A stretch of 20,248 nucleotides of DNA. Source: a virus. The DNA is taken from positions 1 to 20,248 of the IMG/VR virus record IMGVR_UViG_3300037070_003705, one strand, 5' to 3'. The translations under genes were made by a program, and so were the position numbers. Below are positions 6,354-14,790 of this stretch, piece by piece; positions within the stretch are counted from its first letter, which is position 1, and each line of letters opens with the position of its first letter. The notes beneath the pieces are model-generated. The model was not told where the DNA came from, ran no database searches, and saw only the letters and a list, made by a program, of their open reading frames with translations.

Positions 6354-6533
6354 ATGGAGGATAGATGGACGGCCGAAGAGGTCGCCCAAAAACTGCACAT
6401 CACACTGCGGACGCTGTATCAGTGGAGGGTGGAAGGCAAAGGCCCTAAGGGGGCCAAGGTGGGACGACAACTGCTGTTCAAGCCTTCAGACGTCGAGTCG
6501 TGGATCGACCAGCGGAACGAGGTGTCCGAATGA
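6354..6533 (+). CDS. Excisionase/MerR-type helix-turn-helix DNA-binding protein
   Basis: A 59-aa basic protein begins at ATG 6354 with AAAGGA about nine bases upstream (6339-6344). The sequence WTAEEVAQKLHITLRTLYQW is a winged HTH of the excisionase/helix_17 type, followed by GAKVGRQLLFKPSDVESWID, the typical wing and terminal helix. Such proteins bend DNA as recombination directionality factors or act as small repressors or activators. Its stop overlaps the next start as ATGA. No integrase is visible in the window, so a transcriptional or replication-control role in this operon is as likely as excision. Confidence 0.85.
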   Translation: MEDRWTAEEVAQKLHITLRTLYQWRVEGKGPKGAKVGRQLLFKPSDVESWIDQRNEVSE

Positions 6534-6760
6534 ACGAGCGAGCTTATCTGGAGACCATGCTCAACACTGTTCAGACACTTCTACACGACGAGATGTGCCG
6601 TAAGCGCGAGGAATCCTTGCGCTATTTCGTGTACATGGTCGGATCGATCACCGAAACGACTGCGTATCTCGATTCTCAACGCGCAACGGATGGGTACCTG
6701 GAATCAGCGTTCAACCGGATCCAAGAAGTCATCCGCGAGATGTACAAGACCGATGACTGA
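6530..6760 (+). CDS. Small helical protein of unknown function
   Basis: A 76-aa protein whose ATG overlaps the HTH gene stop (ATGA) and whose end overlaps the primase-helicase start by eight bases. The sequence is nearly all predicted helix, rich in Glu, Arg and Met (LNTVQTLLHDEMCRKREESL, NRIQEVIREMYKTDD), with no motif I recognise. The tight coupling to both neighbours suggests a role in the same replication module. A longer GTG-initiated form from about 6500 is possible but would overlap the HTH gene more. Confidence 0.75.
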   Translation: MNERAYLETMLNTVQTLLHDEMCRKREESLRYFVYMVGSITETTAYLDSQRATDGYLESAFNRIQEVIREMYKTDD

Positions 6761-9089
6761 CGGCGCGGCCGACAGGTTCGTGGAGTCCTTCGGCGGCGTG
6801 CCCCAAGGAGAGAACGGAACCGAGCGACTGGCCAACCTAGCGGCTCGAGCGGTCGGCAATGGGTTCGCCGTCGTGCTCGTGACCGCGTCGGGTAAGGCTC
6901 CGATATGCACCCTAACGTCCCGCGAGACCAACGAGGCGGATCGCGCCGCGCGGGAGCGGGCATTCCAACACGGTGACCGTCGGTGGGAGAAGGCGCAACA
7001 TGCGTGCGGATGGGCCCACGCCTTCTCGGATCCTGTGAAGGCGTCGGCAGCCGTTACCCGACTCTCGCGGCAAGGCCGGCTCAACCTCGGCATCGAGCTC
7101 AAGGGCTCTCGGATGATCTGCGTGGACGCCGATACCGCGGCGCAGGTGGCTGCGTTCGCATCCGATATGGAGTCGCACGGCCACGCGCCGATGGATCCCA
7201 CCGTGATGACCCCAGGGTTCCTCAACGAGCAAGGCGAGTGGACTCACAAGGATGGTGGGCACTACTGGTTCTATCTTCCGGACGGCGAGGATGTGCCCTC
7301 GGATCCGTACAACATGAAGATGGGCCCGGAGGGTGCGCAGTATTCGATCTACTGGGCGAACCAGCAGATCCTAGTTCCACCGTCCGTTCGCAAGGAAGGA
7401 CCGTACCGACTCACCGGTGCCAGTCAGGCTGCCCCCACGTGGCTTCTCGACGCCGTACGTCGTCGGGGGGAGGAGCAGGCGGCCAACCGCGAGACGGCCC
7501 GCGAGCGGGCGCTTGCGAGAGCTGCGGCCGGCGAGACGGACAGCGGCATCGACGTCTGGTCGGCAACGACCACATGGGCTGACCTGCTGACCCCCGATGG
7601 TTGGACCATGCGCGGGGAGGACGACGACACATGTGGGTGCCCTATCTGGACGAGGCCTGGTGACTGGTCGAACTGGAAATCGGCCACCGCCCACGAGCTC
7701 GGGTGTGTCAAGTTCCCATGCGAGCGAGGGCACGGACCGCTTCACATTTGGACGGACAGTCCGCCCGAATACCTGATCGGCCAGCCTCGCACCCTTACGA
7801 AAATCATGTATGAGGCGGCCAAGCACGGAGGGATCGCGGAGGCGTGCTCGGACTGGGGGATCGTCCGTGACGGTCAGGCGGGCATATGGGACCCTACGAC
7901 GGCTCCTGAGGCCATCACCGCTCAGGAGCCGTCTTCGGACCCGTTCATGGCGCCTGGGCCGTCTGATGAGTCGTTCGATGACGCCGTGGCCGTCGAGCAG
8001 GCGCGCCAAGATGCCGACGATGACGTGCCCCGCGATGGGCAGGAGACGATCGATGCAGAACGCCGAGCGAAGATCGATGAGATGTTCCCCGACGTCGATT
8101 GGCACACATCGTGGGACGGCGCGAAAGGTGAGGTGTGGATCGTCTATCCGATGCTGTCTGAGGGTCGACTGATCACGATCTACTCCGAGCCGAAGATGGG
8201 CAAGAGCCTTCTCATGCTCGAGCTGGCCGCCGGGATCGCCGCGGGGGTTGAGGTGCTCGGTTTCACTCCCGATCGTCCTCGGAAGGTGCTCTACGTCGAC
8301 TTCGAGAACACGATCGACGGTGACGTGGTCCCGCGTCTGAAAGATATGGGTTGGACTCCTGACGGGCTTCAGAACCTGCATTACCAGTCGTTCCCCAGCC
8401 TCGCCGCCCTCGACTCAGAGAGGGGGGGCGAGCAGCTCCTGCAGATCGCTCTGTCCAAGGGTTGCGAAGTCGTGATCATCGACACCGTCAGCCGCGCGGT
8501 GGACGGCGGCGAGAACGACAACGACACATGGCTCAACTTCTACCGGAAGACAGGACTCAAGCTGAAGTCGGCGGGCCTCACCACGGCCAGGCTCGACCAC
8601 ACGGGCAAGAACACAACAGCCGGGCCCCGCGGCGGCTCGGCGAAGCTAGGCGACGTCGATGCCACGTGGCACCTCACCGAGGTCGAGGCGGACACAAGAT
8701 ACCGTCTATGGTGCGATGGCAGCCGCATGGTGATCGCGGACAAAGAGGTGATCATCCGACGGGACACATCGCCACTTCGACACGTCGTCGAGGCGGGAGG
8801 TCTGGATCCCTTCGACGGGCCCGTCAGACCTCCCCAGGGCCGGCCCAAGGGTTCACCGAACATGGATCTGATGCGCGCCACGGTTCGGGAGTTCGGGCCC
8901 GTCGGATGCATCAGGGCCACGGCCGTGATGAAGAGCGGCATCCCCAAGTCCTCGGCCTACGACGTGTGGGCGGCTCTCGTGAACACACGTGAGATCATCC
9001 CGGCTGTCGAAGCCGAGATCGATCGGCACGGTTCGGTGATGCCGACCAAGGACCGGTATTGCTGTTCCGAGTTCGACCCCGAGGCGTGA
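6753..9089 (+). CDS. Bifunctional prim-pol primase and RecA-like (RepA-type) helicase
   Basis: This 778-aa protein likely unwinds and primes the phage chromosome. Residues ~25-235 are a prim-pol domain: GFAVVLV (38-43), metal-binding V124-DAD127, GGHYWF with H170, and ILVPPS (206-211). Residues ~268-375 form a linker domain with Cys/His residues (CGCP at 294-297, C318, C323, H327) that may bind zinc. An acidic linker with SSDPF follows. Residues ~445-670 are a RecA/RepA-like ATPase: Walker A SEPKMGKS (478-485), FEN (517-519), Walker B VVIIDT (573-578), RLDHTGKN and a PRGGSAKLGD segment. The C-terminus contains a small helical region that may be an HTH. ATG 6753 is chosen because it overlaps the previous stop; upstream in-frame sequence overlaps the 6530 gene. 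The repeat-rich region follows directly. Confidence 0.93.
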   Translation: MTDGAADRFVESFGGVPQGENGTERLANLAARAVGNGFAVVLVTASGKAPICTLTSRETNEADRAARERAFQHGDRRWEKAQHACGWAHAFSDPVKASAAVTRLSRQGRLNLGIELKGSRMICVDADTAAQVAAFASDMESHGHAPMDPTVMTPGFLNEQGEWTHKDGGHYWFYLPDGEDVPSDPYNMKMGPEGAQYSIYWANQQILVPPSVRKEGPYRLTGASQAAPTWLLDAVRRRGEEQAANRETARERALARAAAGETDSGIDVWSATTTWADLLTPDGWTMRGEDDDTCGCPIWTRPGDWSNWKSATAHELGCVKFPCERGHGPLHIWTDSPPEYLIGQPRTLTKIMYEAAKHGGIAEACSDWGIVRDGQAGIWDPTTAPEAITAQEPSSDPFMAPGPSDESFDDAVAVEQARQDADDDVPRDGQETIDAERRAKIDEMFPDVDWHTSWDGAKGEVWIVYPMLSEGRLITIYSEPKMGKSLLMLELAAGIAAGVEVLGFTPDRPRKVLYVDFENTIDGDVVPRLKDMGWTPDGLQNLHYQSFPSLAALDSERGGEQLLQIALSKGCEVVIIDTVSRAVDGGENDNDTWLNFYRKTGLKLKSAGLTTARLDHTGKNTTAGPRGGSAKLGDVDATWHLTEVEADTRYRLWCDGSRMVIADKEVIIRRDTSPLRHVVEAGGLDPFDGPVRPPQGRPKGSPNMDLMRATVREFGPVGCIRATAVMKSGIPKSSAYDVWAALVNTREIIPAVEAEIDRHGSVMPTKDRYCCSEFDPEA

Positions 9090-9093
9090 ACGT

Positions 9094-9291
9094 GCAGGTC
9101 AGAGCGTTTTCCGGAAAAACATTTCATACGGAAACGGGCAGTACGGAAAATGCGGACAGAAGATGATCATGGGTTCCGGAAAACCGCAGGTCAGAGCGTT
9201 TTGAGTTTTCCGGAAAAAGGGTACCCTAAGTTGATCACTGAAGATCATCTTCCGGAAAAACATTTAAAGATCAACAAGGCCTCTGACCTGC
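9094..9291. repeat. 17-bp direct repeat with an inverted partial copy
   Basis: GCAGGTCAGAGCGTTTT occurs at 9094-9110 and again at 9186-9202. The reverse complement of its first 11 bases, CTCTGACCTGC, is at 9281-9291. In the first copy the repeat runs directly into a TTCCGGAA palindrome; in the second, GAG intervenes before the palindrome. Confidence 0.85.
9109..9265. repeat. 16-bp direct repeat TTCCGGAAAAACATTT
   Basis: The sequence TTCCGGAAAAACATTT is found at 9109-9124 and 9250-9265. Each copy joins a palindrome to an A/T-rich arm, the arrangement expected if a protein binds the palindrome next to a melting-prone stretch. Confidence 0.85.
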
Positions 9292-9353
9292 AACTTTCCG
9301 AGATTCCGGAAAACTATTCCGGTCCGGAATCCGAACCCGGAAAATTCCGGGTT

Positions 9354-9379
9354 CCGGCAGCAGTACGAAGTACTGCCGG
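9354..9379. repeat. Hairpin with GAA triloop
   Basis: CCGGCAGCAGTAC (9354-9366) and GTACTGCCGG (9370-9379) form a 10-bp stem with a 3-base CAG bulge in the left arm and a GAA loop. No T tract follows on either side, so it is not a standard terminator. It may be a single-strand initiation structure or part of the operator/origin array. Confidence 0.6.
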
Positions 9380-9410
9380 ATACCCGGAATCCATCGGTAT
9401 CCGGAACCGC

Positions 9411-9440
9411 CTGACAGGCCGCCAGACACCCGACTAGGGT
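9411..9440 (+). promoter_or_regulatory. Promoter candidate CTGACA-18-TAGGGT
   Basis: CTGACA (9411-9416) matches the -35 consensus TTGACA at five of six positions, and TAGGGT (9435-9440) fits the actinobacterial -10 pattern TANNNT, with an 18-base spacer. It lies at the downstream edge of the repeat region and points into the endonuclease VII-WhiB-terminase gene chain, so the repeats could control it. Transcription would start at about 9447. Confidence 0.5.
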
Positions 9441-9446
9441 CACCCC

Positions 9447-9500
9447 ATGCGACGACTTCGATGGCTCCTGATGTGCCTGCGGAACGAGGCCGAGGAGTAA
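9447..9500 (+). CDS. Possible 17-aa leader peptide
   Basis: ATG 9447 opens a short frame encoding MRRLRWLLMCLRNEAEE before a TAA. The ATG sits six bases after the TAGGGT hexamer, so a transcript from that promoter would be leaderless. There is no Shine-Dalgarno. It may be a leader peptide or a chance ORF; only the promoter geometry supports it. Confidence 0.25.
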   Translation: MRRLRWLLMCLRNEAEE

Positions 9501-9526
9501 GGGTGGCCTTAGCGCAGACGGACGGC

Positions 9527-9579
9527 TAGTGTTCATCATCGCTCAATCAGCACTCGTACTCTCAATGAGAGGAAGTCAG
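9527..9579 (+). promoter_or_regulatory. Leader and ribosome binding site for endonuclease VII
   Basis: TAGTGT (9527-9532) could be a -10 hexamer, though no clear -35 precedes it. The following leader ends in GAGAGGA (9567-9573), six bases before TTG 9580. This Shine-Dalgarno decides the start in favour of the TTG over the in-frame ATG at 9565, which has no ribosome binding site. Parts of the leader (GTTCATCA, ACTCTCAA) recur in the leader at 3300-3321. Confidence 0.45.
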
Positions 9580-10020
9580 TTGACCGACAAGACCTGCATC
9601 GACTGCGCGGCGGCAGGTCGTCCGCTGAGCCGAGTCGCCGACAACCCCGGGCCGCGGTGTGCGACCGACTGGCGGATCGAGCTCAAGCGCCGTAGCCGGG
9701 CAGCGCACGCCCGACGGGTCGCATCGGTGTACGGACTGCCGGTCGGCATGTACGAGGCGCTGTACGAGGCGCAGGGCGGGCGTTGCGCCATCTGCCGGTG
9801 GGCGACTGGCAAGACCAAGCGGCTCGCCGTGGACCACGACCACGCGGCCATGTGCTGCCCGCCCGGTCCGACGAGCTGCGGCAGGTGCGTTCGTGGCCTT
9901 CTGTGCGGACCTTGCAACCAGACGATCGGACGCCTAGGATCCGAGGCATTGTCGCGGGCCGTCGAGTACCTGGCCGATCCCCCCGCCCGTTACATTCTCG
10001 ATCGGAAGGTCGGACATTGA
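9580..10020 (+). CDS. Recombination endonuclease VII (His-Me finger)
   Basis: This 146-aa nuclease resolves branched DNA such as Holliday junctions or packaging intermediates in the T4 gp49 family. The diagnostic core is clear: CAIC (C69, C72), VDHDH (D85, H86, D87, H88), VRGLLCGPCN (C109, C112, N113) and IGRLG. Two extra cysteines in TCIDC at the N-terminus and further Cys in MCCPPGPTSCGRC may form another zinc site within an insertion between the catalytic and zinc segments. TTG 9580 is preferred because AGAGGA lies six bases upstream. The last codons contain the Shine-Dalgarno GGAAGG (10004-10009) of the next gene, whose TTG overlaps this stop. Confidence 0.92.
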   Translation: MTDKTCIDCAAAGRPLSRVADNPGPRCATDWRIELKRRSRAAHARRVASVYGLPVGMYEALYEAQGGRCAICRWATGKTKRLAVDHDHAAMCCPPGPTSCGRCVRGLLCGPCNQTIGRLGSEALSRAVEYLADPPARYILDRKVGH

Positions 10021-12572: not shown

Positions 12573-12718
12573 TGACCTGCCCGCAGCCCGACTCTCACGA
12601 CTGCCTCCAATGCGATCAGACCGGCGCCGTCCACCCGGTCACCGGCAATGCGCACCGGCCGTTCAATGCTCATTGGACCGAGTGCCCGTGTTGCGGCGGG
12701 CTCGGGGTGCATCCGTGA
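12572..12718 (+). CDS. Small DnaJ-type zinc-ribbon protein, 48 aa
   Basis: Two CxxC units (CLQCDQTG and CPCCGGLG) resemble the CxxCxGxG repeats of DnaJ zinc fingers and probably bind one zinc. GTG 12572 keeps the chain of minimal overlaps; ATG 12560 would add four residues and is a fair alternative. The stop overlaps the terminase large subunit start (GTGA). The function is unknown. Confidence 0.6.
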   Translation: MTCPQPDSHDCLQCDQTGAVHPVTGNAHRPFNAHWTECPCCGGLGVHP

Positions 12719-14112
12719 CCGCGCCCGACTTCGCATCCATGAGCACCGAGGAACTCATGCGGCTGGCCGACGAGATCGCCGAGGCTGAGCGGTACAACTG
12801 GGCCAAGGTCGGTAGGCCCGAGCAGCAGGAGCCCGAGGACTACGCGACGTGGGTGATTCAGGCAGGCCGCGGATTCGGGAAGGGACGCGCCGCGTCGGAG
12901 ACCGTGCGCAAGTGGTGCGAGAAGCCGAATCAGCACATCGCCGTGATCGGGCAGAAGTTCGCCGACGTTCGCGATATCAACTTCGGCGGGCCGTCCGGCC
13001 TGGTCAAGGTGATCCCGTCGCACCTTCAGGCGCCGAACGGCTTCCACCGATCGCTCGGTGACACCCACCTTGTGCTGACGAACGGCTCGATCATCAGGGG
13101 CTTCAGTTCGGAAAACCCTGATTCACTCCGAGGTCATGCCTTCGACGGCGCCGTGCTCGACGAGTGGGCCGCGTACAGCCCGGCCGTTGCGCAAGCTGTG
13201 CTCGATCAGGTCTGGTTCTGTCTACGCGAGGCCGCAACACCGCGCGTCATCATCCCGACCACCCCGCGGCGGGTGACGCACGTGCGCGAACTACTCAAGC
13301 GCGCGGAGACCGATCCGAGCATCGTCATCACGCGCGGCCGGACGAGTGACAACACCGCGTTGTCCGCCGTCGCGCTCGCCGAGCTGAACCGTCGATACGC
13401 GGGCACGAAGCTCGGCCGACAGGAGCTTGACGGCGAGCTGCTCGACGAGGTGGAAGGCGCTCTGTTCGGTGGCGACCTGGTCAGCCGGGCGCGCGCACTC
13501 TGGCCGGCGCAACCGCCGACGAGGTATGACCGGATCGTGGTCGGGTTCGACCCGTCCGGCAGTCAAGGCGGTGACGCCTGCGGAATCATGGTGGTCGGCC
13601 TGCTAGACGACATCGTCTACGTGATCGCCGACTACACCGTCAACGGGACGCCCGAGACGCGCTTTGAGGCCGGCTGCCGGGCGGCCTACGACCACGGCGC
13701 CAGCCAGGTGTGGTGCGAGTACAACTACGGCGGCGATATGAACCTAGCGGGTCTGCGTAGCGCGTGGCGCCACCTCACCGAGCGCAGCACCGTGGACGGA
13801 GACCCGCCGAAGTTCCTTCTCTCGACGTTGCGAGGCGACAAGGCGCGGCGTGCCGAGCCGGTGGTCGCGATTTACGAGCAGGCACGCGCCCGTCACGCCC
13901 CCGACCTCGACGAGCTCGAAGCCGAGCTTCAGGAGTGGACGCCGAATGAAGGCGGCGCCAGCCCGAACCGACTGGACTCGCTCACCATAGCCGTGCGCGC
14001 ATTGACTGATAAGCACCGGAACCCAAAGGCGCCAGCGGTACCTCGAGGTACGCGAGAGGGCGGCGCACGCCGCGGGCTCGCGATCACTCAGAGAACAATC
14101 GTCCGAGGATAA
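12715..14112 (+). CDS. Terminase large subunit
   Basis: This 465-aa protein is the ATP-driven DNA packaging motor and nuclease. The ATPase shows Walker A AGRGFGKGR (50-58), Walker B VLDE (147-150) and coupling motif PTTP (181-184). The RNase H-like nuclease begins at VVGFDPSGS with D279 and continues with IADYTV and a C-terminal NRLDSLTIAVRAL segment. Walker A has Gly57 where Thr or Ser is usual. GTG 12715 overlaps the preceding stop; ATG 12739 would remove eight residues and is possible. An HNH endonuclease gene follows after 36 bases. Confidence 0.95.
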   Translation: MTAPDFASMSTEELMRLADEIAEAERYNWAKVGRPEQQEPEDYATWVIQAGRGFGKGRAASETVRKWCEKPNQHIAVIGQKFADVRDINFGGPSGLVKVIPSHLQAPNGFHRSLGDTHLVLTNGSIIRGFSSENPDSLRGHAFDGAVLDEWAAYSPAVAQAVLDQVWFCLREAATPRVIIPTTPRRVTHVRELLKRAETDPSIVITRGRTSDNTALSAVALAELNRRYAGTKLGRQELDGELLDEVEGALFGGDLVSRARALWPAQPPTRYDRIVVGFDPSGSQGGDACGIMVVGLLDDIVYVIADYTVNGTPETRFEAGCRAAYDHGASQVWCEYNYGGDMNLAGLRSAWRHLTERSTVDGDPPKFLLSTLRGDKARRAEPVVAIYEQARARHAPDLDELEAELQEWTPNEGGASPNRLDSLTIAVRALTDKHRNPKAPAVPRGTREGGARRGLAITQRTIVRG

Positions 14113-14148: not shown

Positions 14149-14790
14149 ATGACAACATCATTTGACCCCGCGGGCAGGGTCTACGGGGAATGGACAGTGC
14201 TCGCAAAGGTGGTCGAACGCGGCGTCAAGAACTCCCGGTGGACGTGCCGGTGCTCGTGCGGAACAGTGCGAGACGTGTTCGCGACGTCCTTGCGGCAGGG
14301 CAGCAGCACTTCGTGCGGGCACTCCAAGCGAGTGCCGGGCCAGGTGTTCGGGATGCTGACGCTCATGGAGAAGGCACCTGCGGAAGGCGCCAAGACCAAG
14401 TGGCGCTGCCGATGCGAGTGCGGCACGGAGACCGTCGTCTTCGACGTGAACATCTACCGTGGCCACACGACGTCATGCGGATGTGCGCGTATCAGTCCGA
14501 CCGGGCAGGGCGGCTGGGGGCACGAGCTGTACACGACATGGCGGAACATGCTCAACCGGTGTTATCGCGAAAAGGATCAATGCTGGCATCTGTACGGCGG
14601 ACGCGGGATCAAGGTCTGCGATCGGTGGCGGCAGTCGTTCTGGGCGTTCATCGAGGATATGGGCGAGAGGCCGGAAGGGTGCAGCATCGACCGGATCGAC
14701 AACGACGGGAACTACGAGCCGGGCAACTGTCGATGGGCGACCGCCAAGGAACAGGCCGCCAACACCCGCCGGTGGCCGAAACGCGGTTGA
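14149..14790 (+). CDS. Free-standing HNH-type homing endonuclease with duplicated Cys-rich module
   Basis: A 213-aa protein. Residues ~10-59 and ~65-112 are two copies of one module: G-x-V-[YF]-G, W-x-C-R-C-x-C-G, then a loop ending SCG (C33, C35, C37, C56; C87, C89, C91, C110), probably zinc-binding DNA-recognition units. The C-terminal part, from [15 protein letters not shown] through [12 protein letters not shown] to [18 protein letters not shown] and the final EQ-N-R, is the HNH/AP2-associated homing nuclease core. It sits between the terminase and the head genes, a common insertion place for mobile endonucleases in phages. It probably cuts unoccupied relatives of this locus. Its base composition is slightly less GC-rich than the neighbours. 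Confidence 0.85.

Follow-up and report, generated by a model that had tools for sequence, protein, structure and literature searches.

Known repeat-based origins and comparison with the present locus

The replication of pWTY27, a Streptomyces theta plasmid, requires repAB, and RepB is a predicted primase/polymerase (PMC3583192). It also requires a 300-bp non-coding sequence that contains five 8-bp direct repeats together with inverted repeats; RepA specifically binds this 300-bp sequence, and its deletion abolishes replication (PMC3583192). For another Streptomyces plasmid, pFP11, the Rep protein (RepA) is reported in the same article to bind its own iterons (PMC3583192). In phages, the parS loci of RedRock consist of eight directly repeated 8-bp motifs (PMC7157519).

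We analyzed a 20,248-b IMG/VR virus record in its entirety (hereafter, the window), which represents a partial genome. Similar to pWTY27, the window contains a Prim-Pol type Rep gene adjoined by a non-coding segment of about 300 bp, in which five direct repeats, inverted repeats, and AT-rich parts are found. This likeness to pWTY27 (GU226194) concerns the published layout only. On the other hand, pWTY27 is a plasmid, its repeat is GTGGGAAC/TTCCCAC, the repeats are bound by the partner protein RepA, and its origin was proven by deletion.

Gene content of the virus record

All genes of the record are on the + strand, and their closest protein relatives, with 26–41% identity, belong to actinobacteriophages of Gordonia, Mycobacterium, and Skermania. 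The genes encode an SF2 helicase, an HNH protein, an exonuclease, a DNA polymerase A, a primase-helicase, an endonuclease VII, and a large terminase (12610–14112). The primase-helicase gene (6690–9089, + strand) matched PF09250 (E 8e-10), PF13481 (E 8e-22), and phrog_906, DNA polymerase/primase (E 1.7e-97), and its product was found to contain a Prim-Pol domain at about residues 52–251 and an AAA_25 ATPase domain at about residues 483–642. The start codon may actually be located further in than 6690. The protein is presumed to be an initiator or a replisome protein; the structure predicted for its C-terminus was mainly helical and, with a pLDDT of 58, unusable. A gene at 6354–6533 (+ strand) encodes a MerR/excisionase-like DNA-binding protein of 59 amino acid residues (Pfam HTH_17, E 5.6e-12), which is a possible binder of the repeat array. 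The first gene past the repeat block encodes endonuclease VII (9580–10020, + strand; PF02945, E 6e-22; phrog_307, E 1.4e-52). An HNH gene was located at 1325–1597, and the ORF at 14149–14790 had an HNH-like appearance, as judged by eye only; these two and the endonuclease VII gene are possibly homing-type genes lying between modules.

Queries of IMG/VR with the primase-helicase or the DNA polymerase yielded no relatives of the window. The terminase query yielded one near-identical 10-kb contig (L035), which does not contain the block, and one distant contig, and the same array was not found in a relative by any of these three queries.

Palindrome array in the non-coding block

The non-coding block at 9090–9410, a candidate iteron-type replication origin, begins directly after the primase-helicase gene, and its repeats start within 20 bp of the gene end. 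It was the most repetitive 400-bp segment of the record, with a z of 17.7, and the second-best segment had a z of 4.6. The five perfect TTCCGGAA palindromes that had been described for this block in an earlier note were confirmed by position, with starts at 9109, 9174, 9208, 9250, and 9304, and these sites, lying within 203 bp, were the only ones among the 20,248 b. By chance, 0.16 sites would be expected for the whole record, and five or more sites appeared in 0 of 100 dinucleotide shuffles; shuffles of the region only gave a mean of 0.03 and reached five sites in 0 of 3000. All five palindromes are contained in TTCCGGAAAA in the same direction, with AAAA always on one side, and therefore they also constitute a set of direct repeats. 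Sites 2, 4, and 5 of this set are at 9174–9183, 9250–9259, and 9304–9313, respectively, and sites 1 (9109–9118) and 3 (9208–9217) are extended to TTTTCCGGAAAA at 9107–9118 and 9206–9217, respectively, as had also been stated; all are on the + strand. CCGGAA was present in nine copies in the 321-bp block versus six in the other 19.9 kb. The spacings between the sites were 65, 34, 42, and 54 bp, corresponding to 6.19, 3.24, 4.0, and 5.14 turns, respectively, and did not show helical phasing.

Elsewhere in IMG/VR, the majority of TTCCGGAA triplets were within coding repeats. Non-coding TTTCCGGAAA clusters were observed on two other viral contigs (L053:8506–8609 and L055:7270–7390); both contigs share TTCCGGAAACAC...TTCCGGAAAGAAAAA, and no recognized replication gene was found near them.

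The other structural features reported for the block were also present. By direct reading of the sequence, the 16-bp repeat TTCCGGAAAAACATTT was located at 9109 and 9250, and the GATC-containing inverted repeat GTTGATC ... GATCAAC (9230–9275, with arms at 9230 and 9269) was found around site 4. The block is indeed AT-richer than the rest, with a GC content of 50% across 9090–9410 versus about 65% around it, and the stretch at 9225–9274, with a computed GC content of 34%, is a possible unwinding element. The sole ORF within the block (9150–9437, 95 amino acid residues) had a near-zero codon-position signal (0.06 versus 0.26 for the primase-helicase gene) and no Pfam match; the block was therefore called non-coding, in agreement with the previous view that it lacks a convincing gene. 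A strong hairpin, CCGGCAGCAGTACGAAGTACTGCCGG (9354–9379), which has perfect arms and one bulge according to its sequence and fold and is not followed by a T run, stands between the array and the endonuclease VII gene.

A box shared by actinobacterial phages and plasmids

The block also carries a 17-bp direct repeat, GCAGGTCAGAGCGTTTT, which is exact at 9094–9110 and 9186–9202, and the longest exact repeat obtained in shuffles was 13 bp. This repeat and its inverted partial copy had been treated as local features. The exact match at both positions was verified, but the motif proved to be widespread: the 17-mer was found in 27 IMG/VR contigs, and a reversed-letter control was found in none. BLAST with a 31-mer containing the motif matched hundreds of phage records, chiefly actinobacteriophages, with hosts including Mycobacterium, Streptomyces, Gordonia, Rhodococcus, and Corynebacterium. 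From 72 non-redundant copies at about 40 loci, a consensus of about 24 bp, cRWWnCC-GCAGGTCAGAG-CGTTTT, was drawn, with the conservation ending at about −8 and about +17. Upstream positions, which were not selected by the searches, were also conserved: R at −6 in 66, W at −5 in 63, and Y at −1 in 68 of the 72 copies. The box GCAGGTCAGAG(CGTTTT) is a motif common to unrelated actinobacterial phages and plasmids. In the open-access text searched, no description of the motif was found, and the only occurrence was a phiJoe int-attP primer containing CCGCAGGTCAGAGC.

In the window, the first copy of the box (9094–9110, + strand) lacks the upstream part of the consensus, the second, AAAACC-GCAGGTCAGAG-CGTTTT (GGAAAACCGCAGGTCAGAGCGTTTT; 9186–9202, + strand), fits the whole consensus, and the third, which is inverted, has the GCAGGTCAGAG core only (9281–9291, − strand), within an inverted 12-bp partial copy of the repeat (9281–9292). 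Five matches with the box within 30 bp of TTCCGGAA were found elsewhere, none in a repeat array and mostly in ORF-like sequence. This number did not exceed a rough chance estimate, and therefore the pair is specific to this record.

The box beside replication genes and locus-specific repeats

Prim-Pol was encoded in 4 of the 25 IMG/VR records carrying the exact 17-mer. The distances from the box to the Prim-Pol ORF in L030, L018, and L005 were 109, 243, and 285 bp, respectively, and the distance to the Prim-Pol gene in L090, a Streptomyces contig, was 451 bp. G018 was an exception, with boxes at 34.6 and 58.2 kb located about 6 and 17 kb off Prim-Pol (40.6 kb). In L007 and L028, the box was just 3′ of an AAA_25 helicase gene. 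In L030, L018, L090, and L007, no other 400 bp of the locus was as repetitive as the segment with the box, which adjoined the Prim-Pol or AAA_25 gene, and the repeats differed by locus (ATGGAGC, TTGTTACA, AGGGACT, and CGGGACGA, respectively). The 8 kb of L090:1–8000 (Streptomyces sp. S3) contain two Prim-Pol genes, and a separate repeat-rich segment flanks each of them. In one of these segments, two boxes in inverted orientation surround a palindromic center.

Among complete Streptomyces plasmids, the box was found to precede a P4-family primase gene by about 105 bp, where Prim-Pol comes next and ParA is on the opposite side, or to lie 210 bp upstream of a gene annotated as 'replication protein'. 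In pRL2, two boxes are located amid at least nine ACTGAACG repeats. In pFP11 (NC_006911), at least ten AGGGACGC repeats are present at 27,631–28,298 between the Prim-Pol/rep genes and the ParA operon, and a box with one mismatch lies amid them at 27,758; about 0.7 kb separates it from Prim-Pol and the rep-type gene. In total, the box and other short-repeat arrays flank Prim-Pol/P4-primase genes in the phages L030, L018, and L005, in the Streptomyces sequences L090, NZ_CP108658, and NZ_CP134615, and in pFP11. Repeated 8-mers were enriched (z > 3) around the box at 14 of 33 loci (42%) versus 9 of 77 control windows (12%), which were taken from the same loci and are mostly coding, so that the comparison is only indicative. 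No box was present in 10-kb stretches surrounding the Prim-Pol/DNA polymerase genes of six related phages (Evaa, NHagos, Widow, SPI1, Gadjet, and Morrissey).

The window, with its TTCCGGAAAA repeats, fits this pattern of a box plus locus-specific repeats. A Prim-Pol gene, an adjacent repeat block, and the shared box are present in both the window and pFP11, which likewise has Prim-Pol and rep-type genes and a non-coding array of 8-bp repeats with the single-mismatch box inside. However, pFP11 is a plasmid with a different repeat, and its AGGGACGC array is the candidate for the iterons reportedly bound by Rep. L030, L018, L005, L090, and NZ_CP108658 resemble the window in having the box inside a repeat array at most about 450 bp from a Prim-Pol/P4-primase gene, but each has its own repeat sequence, and they are putative origins known from sequence.

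Assignment of the block as a probable replication origin and alternative explanations

The occurrence of the box and repeat array beside Prim-Pol/P4-primase genes in independent elements, together with the layout of pWTY27, supports an iteron-type origin, and the block at 9090–9410 is probably such an origin of an actinobacterial phage. The block contains five clustered copies of one short motif in non-coding DNA and an AT-rich region, and its neighbor is a putative initiator gene. DnaA boxes are common in iteron origins but not universal, and helically phased spacing is also common. Both features are missing here: no DnaA box with one or fewer mismatches was found in the block, where a single site with two mismatches is present at 9151, and the sites are not phased. 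Cumulative GC skew across the record, which had been proposed as a check, showed no clear reversal at the block. The earlier proposal of a candidate origin thus gained comparative support from independent phages, Streptomyces replicons, and pFP11, but not from the box taken by itself, since integrase/attP regions and phage ends carry it as well.

The origin would be of the type found in those Streptomyces theta plasmids whose Rep is a primase/polymerase, and we infer the following course of initiation. The TTCCGGAAAA repeats would be element-specific sites bound by the phage initiator, which may be the Prim-Pol/AAA_25 primase-helicase or a partner, for example, the HTH_17 protein. The interspersed GCAGGTCAGAG box would be a second, shared site for a factor common to actinobacteria that helps to give the complex its shape. 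Opening would occur in the stretch of 34% GC (9225–9274), which would also be the place where the primase-helicase is loaded. If this is true, the block provides a concrete origin for a Prim-Pol actinophage and ties phage origins to a characterized class of Streptomyces plasmid origins.

The main rival to the origin is that the replication/late junction holds a regulatory region, in which a repressor or late activator of the phage would bind TTCCGGAA and control endonuclease VII, terminase, and downstream genes. The location of the block at the junction of the replication and late operons, with all genes on the + strand, is consistent with such a switch, as are the perfect palindromy of TTCCGGAA, which fits a dimeric HTH protein, and the box on NZ_CP107769, which adjoins TCGGGAAACG palindromes upstream of regulator genes. 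However, no sigma-70-like promoter was found in 8900–9700 by a scan that other promoter types escape, and none of the genes of the record was identified as encoding a repressor. Moreover, the stoperators of cluster A phages are dispersed genome-wide in short intergenic gaps, whereas all sites here are in one block with 20 kb available, and the recurring neighbor at other loci is a primase, not a repressor. We therefore consider an operator/promoter switch unlikely.

A centromere (parS), whose direct repeats of 8–10 bp would be bound by ParB to partition an extrachromosomal prophage, is improbable. The five TTCCGGAAAA repeats, all in one direction, are clustered as direct repeats in phage non-coding DNA, as are the eight 8-bp motifs of parS in RedRock, a cluster A mycobacteriophage, and ParA is located across the box region on three plasmids. 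On the other hand, RedRock parS lies within a parABS cassette, as in RedRock-type phages, with no Prim-Pol neighbor described (PMC7157519), whereas neither ParA nor ParB was recognized among the scanned proteins of this partial record.

A structured RNA or RNA-based origin, in which the transcript of 9090–9450 would fold and act as a regulatory or priming RNA, is very improbable. The fold energy was −145 kcal/mol (z −7.6 versus shuffles), and RNA-based origins occur in non-RepA mycobacteriophage prophages (PMC7157519); however, the palindromes and inverted repeats of any iteron block inflate such a score, and the Rfam search gave no significant match. That the block instead serves for attachment (attP) or marks the boundary of a recombination exchange is also highly doubtful, since, despite the integrase genes and tRNA 3′ ends near the box in other elements and the excisionase-like type of the HTH_17 protein, no integrase was recognized among the scanned proteins, the record has no tRNA gene or tRNA-like core, and five identical palindromes would be unusual as a core.

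Occurrence of the box away from origins

The box adjoins integrase/attP regions in Lolly9, Squirty, and Phrappuccino and is near tRNA 3′ ends in L083, L089, and L093. In these three loci and L151, the box was within about 10–30 bp of apparent tRNA 3′ ends, which suggests that integrated elements have their attachment sites there. Many mycobacteriophages of unrelated types (such as Che8, Marvin, Brujita, Phineas, and Raela) carry the box about 50–100 bp from the right end of the genome, mostly but not uniformly on the minus strand. Of 60 rows taken at intervals along the BLAST ranking, 36 had a right-end location (100 bp or less); the sample leans to over-sequenced clusters and includes the Che8, Brujita, Phineas, and Raela types. 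A cos-linked role of the right-end box is possible. A Chi-like protection of linear ends was also considered and dropped, because the right-end orientation is not uniform and circular plasmids carry the box. The box was further considered as one half of an intrinsic terminator; inverted pairs are present in Moab, but most boxes have no partner arm, and this candidate was rejected.

In Corynebacterium jeikeium (G001, L168–L185), the box is in the middle of intergenic elements that are about 110 bp long and bounded by inverted repeats. Three different terminal repeats of this kind were observed, TGTCGCTAGAACGGGAAT, TGTCGGAAAAGTTGCAA, and TGTCCCAAATCTTCCACT, and the elements are MITE-like or BIME-like. 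The 11-mer was found 20 times in the 2.4 Mb versus about one expected by a rough estimate. Its presence at attP/integrase regions, phage ends, Corynebacterium elements, and regulator genes indicates that the box is not origin-specific, and the box alone is no marker of an origin.

E. coli IHF acts at a set of places like those of the box: the origin, attP, near cos, and chromosomal inverted-repeat elements. This resemblance motivates the hypothesis of a shared architectural factor. We tentatively suggest, as a possibility that falls short of being probable, that cRWWnCC-GCAGGTCAGAG-CGTTTT, which also lies in the middle of the Corynebacterium inverted-repeat elements, is bound by a host factor that occurs throughout actinobacteria and is as yet undescribed. 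This factor would have an IHF-like architectural role and be recruited by mobile elements at origins, at attP, and near cos ends. If this is true, the block in the window is one of the clearest examples of the site of the factor. For MtrA, the resemblance is only partial. Because no consensus has been reported for mIHF sites (PMC6155035), mIHF is neither supported nor excluded as the protein that binds the box. The shared box is the larger prize: its roughly 24 bp are strongly conserved, hundreds of records of actinobacteriophages and plasmids contain it, and it provides a handle toward a host protein on which many actinobacterial mobile elements may depend and toward the origins of uncharacterized plasmids and phages.

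In the plasmid NZ_CP107769 of Streptomyces griseorubiginosus (L211:2700–3600), the genes downstream of the box and its neighboring palindromes were those for two HTH regulators and a Pycsar effector.
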